From positions 124,001-188,000 of the forward strand of contig NZ_JBDLLU010000001.1 of NCBI RefSeq assembly GCF_039749495.1: a DNA stretch of 64,000 nt, written 5' to 3'. This DNA is from Dehalogenimonas sp. THU2. GTDB taxonomy: Bacteria > Chloroflexota > Dehalococcoidia > Dehalococcoidales > Dehalococcoidaceae. The notes beneath the pieces are model-generated. The model was not told the DNA's origin and did not search any database. It saw only the letters and a list, made by a program, of their open reading frames with translations. Both the position numbers and the translations under genes were made by a program. The number at the start of each line of letters is the position of its first letter. Position 1 is the first letter of the stretch. Shown here piece by piece: positions 52,054 through 56,558 of this stretch.

Positions 52054-53400
52054 ATGCCACGGGACATGTTCGAAGCGCATTTTGAAAAACTGAGAGACGA
52101 AACGGCGCCGCTGGCGGCGCGGATGCGGCCCCAAACCCTCGACGAATACGTCGGGCAGGAACACCTGGTGGGGGAGGGGCGGGCGCTCAGGCGGGCTATC
52201 GATGCGGGCGAACTGCCGTCCATCATCCTGTGGGGGCCGCCGGGTTCTGGCAAGACGACGCTGTCTCACCTCATGGCCGGAGCCAGTAAAGCCTATTTCG
52301 CCCAGGTGAGCGCCGTCAGCGCTGGGGTGGCGGACCTGCGGAAGATCATCGAAGAGGCCAAGCAGCGCCGACTGTCGCAGCACCAGAAAACCATCCTCTT
52401 CATCGACGAGATCCACCGCTTCAACAAGGGGCAGCAGGATACCATTTTACCCTACGTGGAGGACGGCACAGTGACCCTCATCGGCGCCACCACCGAGAAT
52501 CCTTCCTTCGAGGTCATTTCACCGCTCTTATCGCGCGCCCGCACTTATGTCCTGAAGGGACTGACCGGCGAGCAGATGAAGCTTATCCTCAGCCGGGCTA
52601 TCGCCGATGTTGAACGGGGTATCGGCAACTCCAACGTGGAATTATCGGAAGAGGCCGCCGATCATATCGTCAACCTGGCCAGCGGAGATGCCCGGATAGC
52701 GCTGAATATCCTGGAACTGGCCGCCCGAACCACACCTGTCGATGAGGCGGGCAAACGGCAGATCACACTTGAAGCCATCGAGGACGCAGCCCAGGCCAAG
52801 ACGCTGCTTTACGACCGCGCCGGCGAGCAGCACTACGATATTATCTCGGCTTTACATAAGTCTATGCGCGGTTCCGATCCGGACGCTTCCTTATATTGGC
52901 TGGGACGTATGTTGGAGGCGGGAGAAGACCCGCTATACGTCGTTCGCCGCCTGATCCGCTTCGCCTCGGAGGATGTGGGTATGGCCGACCCCCAGGCGCT
53001 CGTCGTAGCTATGGCGGCGCAGCAGGCGGTCCATTTCGTCGGCATGCCGGAATGCAACGTGGCACTGGCACAACTGGTGGTCTATCTGGCCACTGCGCCT
53101 AAGAGTAACTCTCTCTACAAGGGATATAAACGGGTGCAGGAAACTATCGCTAAAAACCCCATCGAGCCGGTGCCGCTGCACCTGCGGAACGCCGCGACAG
53201 GGTTGATGAAGGACCTGGGCTACGGCAAGGGCTACAAATACGCTCACGATTTCCCCGGCGGTTTCGTCCGGCAACAGAACCTGCCGGACTCGCTCAAGGA
53301 TAAAAAGTTCTATCTTCCGACGGAAATCGGGTTTGAAAAGACCATCAATGCGCGCCTCAAGGCCTGGTTCGGCGACAACATAGACAACAACGAGGGGTAG
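52054..53400 (+). CDS. rarA: Replication-associated recombination protein A (RarA/MgsA)
   Basis: A 448-residue AAA+ ATPase acting at stalled replication forks. Motifs: MRPQTLDEYVGQEHL, Walker A ILWGPPGSGKTTLSHL, Walker B FIDEIHRFNKGQQD, sensor TENPSFEVISPLLSRARTY (partly quoted), and the C-terminal tetramer domain with YDIISALHKSMRGSDPDASL. Full length. It stands alone. Confidence 0.95.
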   Translation: MPRDMFEAHFEKLRDETAPLAARMRPQTLDEYVGQEHLVGEGRALRRAIDAGELPSIILWGPPGSGKTTLSHLMAGASKAYFAQVSAVSAGVADLRKIIEEAKQRRLSQHQKTILFIDEIHRFNKGQQDTILPYVEDGTVTLIGATTENPSFEVISPLLSRARTYVLKGLTGEQMKLILSRAIADVERGIGNSNVELSEEAADHIVNLASGDARIALNILELAARTTPVDEAGKRQITLEAIEDAAQAKTLLYDRAGEQHYDIISALHKSMRGSDPDASLYWLGRMLEAGEDPLYVVRRLIRFASEDVGMADPQALVVAMAAQQAVHFVGMPECNVALAQLVVYLATAPKSNSLYKGYKRVQETIAKNPIEPVPLHLRNAATGLMKDLGYGKGYKYAHDFPGGFVRQQNLPDSLKDKKFYLPTEIGFEKTINARLKAWFGDNIDNNEG

Positions 53401-53530: not shown

Positions 53531-53634
53531 TAGGTACTAGTCGGTTAACTAAGTATTAGTACTTATTGACAGATGTCACGGAAGTCTTATATAATCAGTG
53601 TCATCCCAGTGGGGCGGTACTAGTTCCTAAGTAC
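53531..53634 (+). promoter_or_regulatory. Strong promoter flanked by palindromic operators
   Basis: TTGACA (53566-53571), 18 bases, TATAAT (53590-53595): both boxes perfect. Just upstream is AAGTATTAGTACTT (53551-53564), nearly palindromic, and before it GGTACTAGT. Downstream, over about +16 to +32, GTACT and AGTAC (53617-53634) flank AGTTCCTA. The half-site resembles GTACTWAG and the upstream site shares AAGTATTAGT with the operator at 38497. Confidence 0.65.
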
Positions 53635-53661: not shown

Positions 53662-53700
53662 ATGATACCTGACTCTCACAAGACACCGAACTTAATCTGA
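53662..53700 (+). CDS. Possible 12-residue leader peptide
   Basis: MIPDSHKTPNLI, with GGAGG seven bases before the ATG, in the untranslated leader of the Cys-rich protein gene. The ribosome binding site is better than chance would suggest. It could be an attenuator or a chance frame. Confidence 0.3.
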   Translation: MIPDSHKTPNLI

Positions 53701-53762
53701 AAGAACGCACCTGTCCTGTCCAAGGGAAACGAAGCAAACATAGAACGAAAGGAACCAAGCAA

Positions 53763-53930
53763 ATGAAGCAGTCAGGTTTTCACGTAGCTACTTCGCATTG
53801 CGGTCTATGTCACTACTCCGGTTACTCCAACCGATGCACCTTTTTCGATGACGGAGTGTGCCCCTACATCCAGAGCGTCCGCGACATTAAAAAGGGAAGC
53901 CATGCCCAAGAAGCGGAAGTCGCCGCTTAA
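53763..53930 (+). CDS. Small Cys/His-rich protein, function unknown
   Basis: A 55-residue protein beginning MKQSGFHVATSHCGLCHYSG. Cys residues at Cys13-x2-Cys16-His17, then Cys25 and Cys33 with several His/Tyr, could bind a metal or iron-sulfur cluster. AAAGGAACCAAGCA precedes the ATG. It has its own strong promoter, operator-like palindromes and a strong terminator, so it is clearly expressed as a single gene. Its operators link it to the molybdoenzyme operon. The family is not recognised; homologues should be sought among short proteins. Confidence 0.7.
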   Translation: MKQSGFHVATSHCGLCHYSGYSNRCTFFDDGVCPYIQSVRDIKKGSHAQEAEVAA

Positions 53931-53957: not shown

Positions 53958-53993
53958 AAGCGGCGGGGGTGAAAACCTCCGCCGCTTTTTCTA
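53958..53993 (+). terminator. Rho-independent terminator after the Cys-rich gene
   Basis: AAGCGGCGGGGGT pairs with ACCTCCGCCGCTT around a GAAA loop (13 bp with one G-U) and is followed by TTTTTCT. Confidence 0.9.
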
Positions 53994-54083
53994 TTGCGAT
54001 AATTTCGATCTCAAATTGATGTATTGCCCGGCTTCCGGCTGTGTGCTAAGATAGCCTGAGTACAAGAGGTGAATGATCGTTCA

Positions 54084-55631
54084 ATGAAAAACAAACTCAA
54101 TGAACTCGCATCCAAAAAGCAGCAGATAGCGTCCGGCGGCGGTGAATCCCGGATCAAGGCGCAGCACGCCCGCGGCAAGCTTACCGCCCGGGAGCGCATC
54201 GAAAAACTGCTGGACCCCGGTTCCTTTCTCGAACTTTCCGCTTTTTGCAGTCACCGGGCGATCGATTTCGGTTTGGCCGATCAGCAGCATCCCGGCGACG
54301 CCGTGGTGACCGGCTGCGGCACGATCGACGGACGCAAGGTATTCGTTTATTCCCAGGACTTCACCGTCCTCGGCGGCTCCATCTCCGAGGTGGTCGGGCA
54401 GAAGGTGCGCCAGATCGTAGACATGGCCATCGACCAGGGCGCACCCCTGATTGCCATCAACGACTCCGGCGGCGCCCGCATTCAGGAGGGCGTGGCCAGC
54501 CTGTGCGGCGTAGGCGATATACTGCTGCTTAATGCCCTGGCTTCGGGGGCGATTCCTCAGATATCGATTATCGTCGGTCCTTCGGCGGGCGGGGCGGTCT
54601 ACGGGCCGGCCCTCACCGACTTCGTGTTCATGGTCAAGGGCATGGGCCAGATGTATATCACCGGTCCGGACGTGGTCAAGGCGGTCACCGGCGAAGAAGT
54701 GACCCACGAGGCCCTGGGCGGCGCCGACGTTCACGGGAAAAAGAGTGGGGTGTCCCACTTCACCTGCAATACCGAGATGGAGTGCTATGCGTCGGTGCGG
54801 CGCCTGCTGTCATTCCTGCCTTCTAGCTTCAAAGAGCCCTCGCCTAGGCTTCCGGTCAAGAAGACCTCCGTCAGCCAGGAAGACGAGACCCTCAACAGCA
54901 TCGTCCCCGACGACCCGCGCCGGGCTTACGATATGAAAAAGATCATCACCGCCGTTCTCGATAACGGTGATTTCATGGAAGTGCACGCCGCCTTTGCGCC
55001 CAACATCGTCGTCGGTTTCGGCCGGATCGACGGACAGAGCGTCGGCATCGTCGCTCAGCAGCCCAATTTCCTGGCCGGCGTCATAGATATCAACGCTTCG
55101 GTCAAGGCGGCGCGCTTCGTGCGTTTCTGCGATGCGTTCAACATTCCGATTATCAGCTTTGTCGATGTGCCGGGTTTCATGCCCGGCGTCGACCAGGAAC
55201 ACGGCGGCATCATCCGCCACGGCGCCAAGCTGATTTTCGCCTACGCCGAAGCCACCGTGCCCAAGATCACCGTCATCACCCGCAAGGCCTACGGCGGCGC
55301 CTATATTGTCATGAGTTCCCGGCACCTCCGCGGCGATATCAACCTGGCCTGGCCCTGTGCCGAGATAGCAGTCATGGGTGCGGAAGGTGCGGTGGCCGTC
55401 ATTCACCGCAAGAAGATCGCCGAGTCCCCGGAACCAGATGCGGAACGCCAGCGCTGTGTCGCCGAGTACCGGGAGAAATTCGACAATCCGTATCAGGCGG
55501 CGGCCATGGGCTATATCGATGACGTGATCGTCCCCGCGGAGACGCGGCCCCGTCTTATCCAGGCGTTACGGACGCTGGCTGGCAAGACGGGCAAGAACCC
55601 GGCTAAAAAGCACGGCAACATCCCGTTGTAG
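54084..55631 (+). CDS. Acyl-CoA carboxylase carboxyltransferase subunit (PccB/MmdA type)
   Basis: A 515-residue biotin-dependent carboxyltransferase that moves CO2 between biotin and an acyl-CoA such as propionyl- or acetyl-CoA. It has two crotonase-like halves: ARGKLTARERIEKLLDPGSF, NDSGGARIQEGVASLCG, GPSAGGAVYGPALTDF in the first, and NFLAGVIDINASVKAARF, DVPGFMPGVDQEHGGIIRHG (one oxyanion hole), AYGGAYIVMSS in the second. The ATG at 54084 is uncertain; a GTG at 54069 in frame may be used instead, since AAGAGGTG is close to it. Biotin carboxylase is not in the window. Confidence 0.88.
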   Translation: MKNKLNELASKKQQIASGGGESRIKAQHARGKLTARERIEKLLDPGSFLELSAFCSHRAIDFGLADQQHPGDAVVTGCGTIDGRKVFVYSQDFTVLGGSISEVVGQKVRQIVDMAIDQGAPLIAINDSGGARIQEGVASLCGVGDILLLNALASGAIPQISIIVGPSAGGAVYGPALTDFVFMVKGMGQMYITGPDVVKAVTGEEVTHEALGGADVHGKKSGVSHFTCNTEMECYASVRRLLSFLPSSFKEPSPRLPVKKTSVSQEDETLNSIVPDDPRRAYDMKKIITAVLDNGDFMEVHAAFAPNIVVGFGRIDGQSVGIVAQQPNFLAGVIDINASVKAARFVRFCDAFNIPIISFVDVPGFMPGVDQEHGGIIRHGAKLIFAYAEATVPKITVITRKAYGGAYIVMSSRHLRGDINLAWPCAEIAVMGAEGAVAVIHRKKIAESPEPDAERQRCVAEYREKFDNPYQAAAMGYIDDVIVPAETRPRLIQALRTLAGKTGKNPAKKHGNIPL

Positions 55632-55706: not shown

Positions 55707-56036
55707 GTGGTTGAAGGTACAGTTCCGCCTGAAGTACTACTCCGTGAGAAAAAATGCGCGTTGGCATTGCAAGATATCGAAGACTTCATGAAGAGTACCA
55801 GGAAATATGCCTTAAGGGATCTTTGTGAACACTTAAAGAGTCTAGAGGATTATGCAAGACACTCCAAAAAGGATGTTCAAAGTAGGCAATATGAACCGAT
55901 TGATTATGTATTTCACACGCTAGAAGAAAGCATCGGTAAGTTAGTTGGTGAGTCACATCGTATTTATGACTCGGTCAATTCTCTTAAATCATCTTGTCAC
56001 CTCTTCCGTGAAGAAAACAACTTAATCCGAAAATAG
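55707..56036 (+). CDS. Small helical protein of an AT-rich cassette, function unknown
   Basis: A 109-residue mostly helical, charged protein (GTG start, GGAGG six bases before). Sequence such as DIEDFMKSTRKYALRDLCEHL and YVFHTLEESIGKLVGESHRI suggests helical bundles. It is AT-rich compared with its neighbours and lies six bases before the cyclotransferase-like gene, so the two likely came together. No known domain recognised. Confidence 0.6.
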   Translation: MVEGTVPPEVLLREKKCALALQDIEDFMKSTRKYALRDLCEHLKSLEDYARHSKKDVQSRQYEPIDYVFHTLEESIGKLVGESHRIYDSVNSLKSSCHLFREENNLIRK

Positions 56037-56042
56037 GGGAAT

Positions 56043-56558
56043 TTGACTTTAGTATTTCAATACGGTTCGAACACATCTCTGTCGAGGATTAATTCTGACG
56101 ATAGGCTAAGAGGTGATGCTCGTCCGATTGGAATTGCGTATACTGAGGATGATTATGATCTTGAATTCACCGTTTGTAGCAAGGGAAACAAATGCGCTGC
56201 GGCGAGTATCGAACAAGGTTCCGGGCGAAACATCTGGGGAGTCCTTTATGATATCCCGGATTATTTGATCTATCGCGGGCAATCGGGTGAGCGAAAGTCA
56301 TTGGATAAAATAGAAGGTGAGGGCGTGAATTACCGCCGTATGCCGATACGAGTCCGGGACAGTGAAGGAAAGTCAATTATTGAACCCGTGATAACTTATG
56401 TTGCTTTGGACAGAAAGCAGGGCATAAAAACCTCAAGCGTGTATGCTAATCTCATTATTGCCGGACTTAAAGAAAACAATGTTCCAAATGACTATATAGA
56501 ATATGTCAGAACTAAAATACTTGAGAACAACGCTGATCTAGGGAATGAATTAAATTAA
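56043..56558 (+). CDS. Gamma-glutamylcyclotransferase-like protein (TTG start)
   Basis: A 171-residue GGCT-fold protein. The loop FQYGSN (5-10) matches the substrate-binding YGSN/YGSL motif, IWGVLYDIP is the typical central strand, and SLDKIEGEGVNYRRMPIRV carries the likely catalytic Glu91. The C-terminal SSVYANLIIAGLKENNVPNDYIE is also usual. TTG start after AGGGGA. Such enzymes split gamma-glutamyl peptides or, in some cases, amines. AT-rich, in a two-gene cassette inserted in the carboxylase cluster. Confidence 0.72.
   Translation: MTLVFQYGSNTSLSRINSDDRLRGDARPIGIAYTEDDYDLEFTVCSKGNKCAAASIEQGSGRNIWGVLYDIPDYLIYRGQSGERKSLDKIEGEGVNYRRMPIRVRDSEGKSIIEPVITYVALDRKQGIKTSSVYANLIIAGLKENNVPNDYIEYVRTKILENNADLGNELN

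Follow-up and report, generated by a model that had tools for sequence, protein, structure and literature searches.

Does the short interval between rarA and an mmdA-like gene in Dehalogenimonas sp. THU2 hold a gene of its own and, if so, what might its product do? The window analysed here is a stretch of 64,000 nucleotides (contig NZ_JBDLLU010000001.1, positions 124,001 to 188,000). An earlier note, made from the letters of this DNA, had proposed a compact Cys-rich gene with its own promoter, ribosome binding site, leader peptide, and terminator. Length cut-offs could overlook so short a gene. The features of the locus are collected in Table 1.

Table 1. Features of the small gene and its surroundings (positions in the window)
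Feature	Position	Strand	Basis
Neighbour, RarA/MgsA-type AAA+ ATPase (context)	52054..53400	+	Pfam; adjoins in 7/7 relatives
Further copy of first operator half, 5' of promoter, GGTACTAGT	53533..53541	+	Sequence; putative role
Palindrome-like site 1 abutting -35, AAGTATTAGTACTT	53551..53564		Alignment; putative role
-35 hexamer TTGACA	53566..53571	+	Exact, 8/8 genus genomes
-10 hexamer TATAAT	53590..53595	+	Exact, 8/8 genus genomes
Site 2, GGTACTAGTTCCTAAGTAC, motif GGTACTAGTN6GTAC common to rdhA promoters	53616..53634	+	Exact in 6/8 genus genomes; rdhA association
12-codon leader frame MIPDSHKTPNLI, probably not conserved	53662..53700	+	Sequence; among 7 relatives, also in G006 only
AAAGGA, ribosome-binding-like site, 9 nt 5' of ATG	53748..53753	+	Sequence
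Gene, 55-aa four-cysteine protein	53763..53930	+	Frame conserved, codon-level selection
Intrinsic terminator hairpin, then T tract	53958..53987	+	Sequence; hairpin in relatives
Neighbour, MmdA-like carboxyltransferase (context)	54069..55631	+	Pfam; NCBIfam below cut-off; adjoins in 7/7 relatives

The frame starts with ATG and encodes MKQSGFHVATSHCGLCHYSGYSNRCTFFDDGVCPYIQSVRDIKKGSHAQEAEVAA. Its Cys and His residues are H12, C13, C16, H17, C25, and C33, which confirms the metal-binding type residues noticed before, and a basic stretch lies downstream of the Cys core. The strong promoter that had been claimed lies upstream of the interval described in the earlier note. It is of the sigma-70 type, agrees with the consensus at 12/12 positions, and has a spacer of 18; TTGACA-N18-TATAAT is exact upstream of the small gene in 8/8 genus genomes. 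The ribosome binding site was likewise found as described. The terminator, which had been called perfect-looking, was also confirmed; its hairpin has 13 pairs followed by TTTTTCT, and none of 60 mononucleotide shuffles matched it. A terminator-like hairpin with a T tract was detected by script in 7/8 genus genomes; in G006, the hairpin exceeded the loop limit of the script and was recognised by eye instead.

The small gene is present in all eight Dehalogenimonas genomes examined, the source genome (G000) included, and sits between rarA and the mmdA-like gene in each of them. In G006, rarA and the small gene are separated by an open frame of 327 codons on the opposite strand. Over the first 45 codons, pN/pS was 0.00-0.26 in all 28 pairs of the eight genomes, and the variable columns per codon position were 11/10/42, a bias that was gone in both shifted frames. 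Because the frame is conserved and the changes are biased towards synonymous ones, 53763-53930 is a real protein gene under purifying selection. The core of the earlier proposal, a compact, separately transcribed Cys-rich gene with its own promoter and terminator, is supported, with the frame and the promoter in 8/8 genomes and the hairpin in the relatives. In the sister genus (three genomes), the best match had an E value of 0.39, and profile searches gave none. Further downstream, at 55707-56558, two frames, one of 109 aa and one AIG2-like, lie between the mmdA-like and OadA-like genes. This stretch has a low GC content (0.41), its two frames have no counterpart among the frames of at least 80 aa picked in seven relatives, and it was possibly inserted.

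A compact promoter-terminator unit would also suit a small RNA in which the frame is accidental. This reading is contradicted by the codon-level evidence, namely the low pN/pS and the third-position variation, and also by homologues that form a domain of larger proteins (see below); its probability is practically negligible. The outcome that the earlier note had named as pointing to a small RNA, an RNA structure kept while the frame is not, came out the other way round: the frame is conserved, and no consensus fold or pairs were found in the eight genus leaders. Rfam gave 0 matches in the window and none in 12 loci. On the absent Rfam match and the absent consensus leader fold, a structured RNA or riboswitch is not supported. 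The proposed leader peptide with its own GGAGG did not hold up. The 12-codon frame, which is preceded by GGAGGG, is missing from 6/7 relatives and was seen only in G000 and G006. With the leader frame in just 1/7 relatives, a leader-peptide-controlled operon was rejected.

The protein has the family core spacing C-x2-C-x8-C-x7-C. Across 16 aligned rows, C13, C16, G20, S22, G31, and C33 never vary. The third Cys, C25, is conserved in 15/16 and replaced by Phe in G016. Alignment A8 excludes G005 (near-identical to G004) and G007 (identical to G003). The four-Cys core, with Pro after the last Cys in many members, resembles zinc-finger and ferredoxin families. However, searches of Pfam, NCBIfam, and PHROGs at E 0.01 gave no match for any of the 16 members, so no zinc-finger, ferredoxin, or other named family was found above cut-off, and the best match of a PDB search was unconvincing (E 0.52). 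To our knowledge, this spacing fits no zinc-finger or ferredoxin family. The 55-aa protein thus defines an unnamed family without a match in the libraries searched. The conserved Cys ligands suggest that the four cysteines of this protein of 55-60 residues probably hold a single metal ion or iron-sulfur cluster, around which the chain folds. The AlphaFold model (mean pLDDT 59) is too poor for a fold search or metal-site geometry.

The family is rare. In the class of the source genome, 12/393 genomes matched at E 0.001, eight of them from the genus, and across the phylum 11/400 matched at E 0.01, comprising the eight genus genomes and three weak cases that were set aside. The order of G308 gave 5/84 genomes, with G778 and G789 newly found there, the order of G195 gave 1/18, and the class of G522 gave 0/41. 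Overall, eight genomes outside the genus carry a member, including G050 and G016; the estimated contamination of G050, G778, and G789 is 6-9%. Weak matches with E values of 0.005-0.47 were set aside as unconvincing, which does not disprove them (G038, G020, G046, G011, G021, G012, G055, G044, G008, G051, G013, a second place in G006, G125, G137, G522, and two places in G528). A mobile origin was considered and rejected, as P0001 and the double module had no plasmid match and A3/A4 had no viral-contig match.

All eight members found outside the genus adjoin or sit within regulatory genes. In G308 and G392, the member lies directly 3' of a PAS histidine kinase and an OmpR-type regulator; the domains were determined for the G308 pair, and the G392 regulator is 80% identical to that of G308. 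A winged-helix regulator (about 100 residues) is encoded divergently from it in G016, G332, and G789, and G050 has the same arrangement, cut by the contig end. In these four genomes, a TTGACA/TATAAT-like promoter points toward the small gene and is followed by an ACGAA/TTCGT repeat, as judged by eye, which is clear in G016 and G789 and imperfect in G050 and G332. This winged-helix family is common (25/61 genomes), usually without the four-Cys gene. As a general partner it was rejected: it occurs in 3/8 genus genomes, and the four-Cys pattern is nearby at 2/20 of its loci. Also in G016 (L010 1-969), the small gene follows a 40-residue frame that, as judged by eye, looks like the end of a biotinyl domain but lacks the usual MKM. 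Within the genus, no regulator adjoins the small gene.

In G195 and G778, two tandem four-Cys copies form the C-terminal part of a receiver-domain protein. A kinase with Fe-hydrogenase, FeS, HisKA, and HATPase domains is encoded about 1.5 kb upstream, and we take these kinases to resemble the sensory [FeFe]-hydrogenase-type histidine kinases that act with a response regulator. The four-Cys part differs from such systems in having no family name, and the genus protein, which stands alone, differs in having no receiver domain. The receiver was assigned by Pfam in L050 and by 53% identity to L050 in L074. The fused proteins have two four-Cys copies and no recognised DNA-binding domain. The receiver proteins with two modules (L050 6462-7169, L074 7520-8353) have a hydrogenase-type histidine kinase and Hdr/Nuo-like genes nearby.

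How the small gene is controlled can be approached from its promoter, which is flanked by GTACTA-type repeats. Site 1 is RGTACTARTACC-like in the other genus genomes and degraded in G002. GGTACTAGTN6GTAC is exact just 3' of the -10 hexamer in all but G001 and G002, which lack it. At up to one mismatch, 30 sites were found in the eight genus genomes versus 18 for a backwards control. Of the 24 sites that are not at the small gene, 15 lie 44-424 nt upstream, on the same strand, of 14 reductive dehalogenase genes (rdhA), and nine do not lie ahead of rdhA. Uniform placement predicts 0.09 of 24 within the 450-nt upstream window, which was chosen after inspecting the sites; this compares observed with uniform-expected placement only, and the genomic positions of the 18 control sites did not enter it. 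Sites in orthologous rdhA genes are not independent, and a rough collapse left 11/20 (P about 2e-22). The 14 genes all encode RdhA with twin-arginine starts. TIGR02486 matched eight of them (E 1e-33 or better), four over the cut-off and four under it on frames cut by locus ends; the other six lie at coordinates over the cut-off in the list of rdhA-type matches. Twelve sites are exact, six at the small gene and four before rdhA (three genes); the remaining two lie near a kinase/regulator pair and ahead of a substrate-binding-protein-like gene, respectively.

The sharing of this motif between the small gene and some rdhA promoters is well supported. Neither it nor the association of the family with regulatory genes figured in the earlier note. 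The shared operator exceeds chance, with the motif missing at 2/8 small-gene promoters, and at up to one mismatch it precedes 14/237 rdhA-type matches (19-52 per genus genome of 1.7-2.1 Mb, as would fit Dehalogenimonas), a minority of them. At up to two mismatches, 5/30 top-scoring rdhA loci have it, versus one for the control. Two rdhA genes of G001 bear a two-mismatch motif, whereas its small gene has none, and in the source genome the motif occurs at one rdhA only (one mismatch). The short motif GGTACTAGTNC was dropped, as it was hardly enriched in G000 (13 sites versus 9 for the control) and none of six inspected sites was near rdhA. In G005, two exact tandem copies lie 163 bp apart before one rdhA (L117 and L121, G005:C1:1809522 and 1809685), inside a duplicated upstream segment.

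The placement of the motif differs between the two kinds of promoter. At rdhA, the best -10-like hexamer begins 22-24 nt 3' of the site in 11/15 cases, and such a hexamer with at most one mismatch occurs downstream in 13/15 and upstream in 7/15. At the small gene, the site is preceded in 6/6 by an exact TATAAT, whose end lies 1-20 nt 5' of it, and none follows downstream at one mismatch. Regulatory genes are found near some sites. In L097, a MarR-type gene (Pfam) is divergent from the motif-bearing rdhA; the same holds for L111/L115, where the gene is 30% identical to that of L097 and L111 has no Pfam match. In L105 (G005:C1:595376-595401), overlapping sites on both strands lie 3' of a kinase/OmpR-type pair, with a radical-SAM gene next and no rdhA within the 3 kb examined. 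The G308 regulator was compared with one beside a motif site, and the resemblance was too weak to use (43% versus 38% to another).

The leaders of rdhA genes were also inspected. The leader of the small gene in G000 shares ATGATACCTGAC with that of one rdhA of G002 (L163); blastn at E 1 returned only operator-motif pieces, so we make no claim from this likeness. The rdhA leaders share GGCATCCGGGAGAGACCGGA-like DNA 3' of GGAGG in 8/30 loci by a strict pattern and at 10/27 distinct starts by a loose one, without an Rfam match. Such leaders are located upstream of rdhA in L135, L136, L141, L144, L145, L152, L162, and L163. A 2024 paper, in the part available to us, names an 'rdhA motif' as a candidate riboswitch of Dehalococcoides (PMC11109978).

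We tentatively favour, as a reading that is quite possible, a metal- or redox-binding signalling adaptor that is gated together with some rdhA genes by a shared regulator. A DNA-binding regulator of the MarR or OmpR type, acting on some rdhA genes, would gate the consensus promoter of the small gene. The GTACTA-N6-TAGTAC-like operator just after the -10 hexamer would be in a blocking position, and in rdhA promoters it would be at a roughly activator-like position. Given this operator position, the amount of protein would track the state of organohalide respiration. The protein may then signal the redox or metal state to a regulator; in related bacteria, the same module makes up the C-terminus of receiver-domain response regulators. 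With an activator of rdhA, expression of the small gene and of rdhA would be expected to change in opposite directions, and with a MarR repressor in the same direction. In favour of this reading are the purifying selection, the fixed position and exact promoter of the gene, the conserved Cys residues, the regulatory genes around the members outside the genus, and the motif with its placement. Against it count the few rdhA genes that bear the motif, its absence from the small gene in G001 and G002, the nine sites elsewhere, the Phe at the third Cys in G016, and the lack of an adjoining regulator in the genus. An extension of this proposal, which we consider unlikely, is a feedback arm of organohalide respiration formed by the unnamed module, which is used both as a stand-alone protein and as a receiver output domain. 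The rdhA regulator would block the small gene from the downstream copy of the site, or a MarR protein would repress both, so that the protein level would reflect dehalogenase induction and the protein would adjust the sensor according to redox or metal state.

Other functions fit part of the same evidence. The motif common with rdhA, the mmdA-like neighbour in 8/8, the four-Cys core, and the G016 member, which by eye precedes a biotin-carboxylase-like gene, would suit a metal or iron-sulfur chaperone or small electron carrier. Its clients would be dehalogenases or the biotin-dependent carboxylase next door, it would be regulated together with them, and the receiver fusions would have recruited the module secondarily. 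This is somewhat unlikely, as the small gene has its own terminator before mmdA, most members outside the genus have no carboxylase neighbour, the sister genus has no family member, and the module is fused to receiver domains. These fusions also argue against a metal store or redox buffer that works with no regulatory partner; a short, Cys-rich product of a strong promoter would agree with it, but just four Cys per module do not, and it is very unlikely. The protein could itself be a small zinc-finger-like DNA- or RNA-binding regulator, given its Cys/His-rich core, the basic stretch after it, and the constant company of regulatory genes outside the genus. We consider this doubtful in view of the absent zinc-finger match above any cut-off, of the unconvincing best PDB match, and of fused proteins that carry two copies and no recognised DNA-binding domain.

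The shared regulator of the adaptor reading can be related to described systems. MarR-type and two-component (RdhP/RdhS) control of rdhA is reported, with citation of Krasper 2016 and Wagner 2013. Two placements of the motif resemble such control: the intergenic space that separates rdhA from a divergent MarR-type gene (L097, L111/L115) and the vicinity of a kinase/OmpR-type pair (L105). The small-gene target differs from it in being no dehalogenase and in having the site after the -10 hexamer, not before. The part of a report available to us describes both kinds of control in Dehalogenimonas and Dehalococcoides and a single 6-bp palindrome ahead of one strain GP rdhA, and mentions no such motif or small gene there (PMC13390414). 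Literature searches among open-licence PMC papers turned up none that treats this protein or motif in its title or the displayed opening of its abstract. In Sulfurospirillum, the sites of RR2 (OmpR type) overlap the -35 of pceAB, according to the available part of that study (PMC7755780), and likewise place a regulator at the -35 region of a dehalogenase promoter. Unlike at the small gene, the RR2 site is a CTATW-N17-CTATW direct repeat, and that part mentions no four-Cys gene (PMC7755780).

The control of the dozens of dehalogenase genes in these probably dechlorinating bacteria is largely open, and a motif common to 14 rdhA genes and one tiny non-dehalogenase gene offers a concrete DNA target in the search for the regulator. 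The four-Cys module, which none of the searched family libraries contains, connects regulatory systems with a possible metal or redox chemistry.
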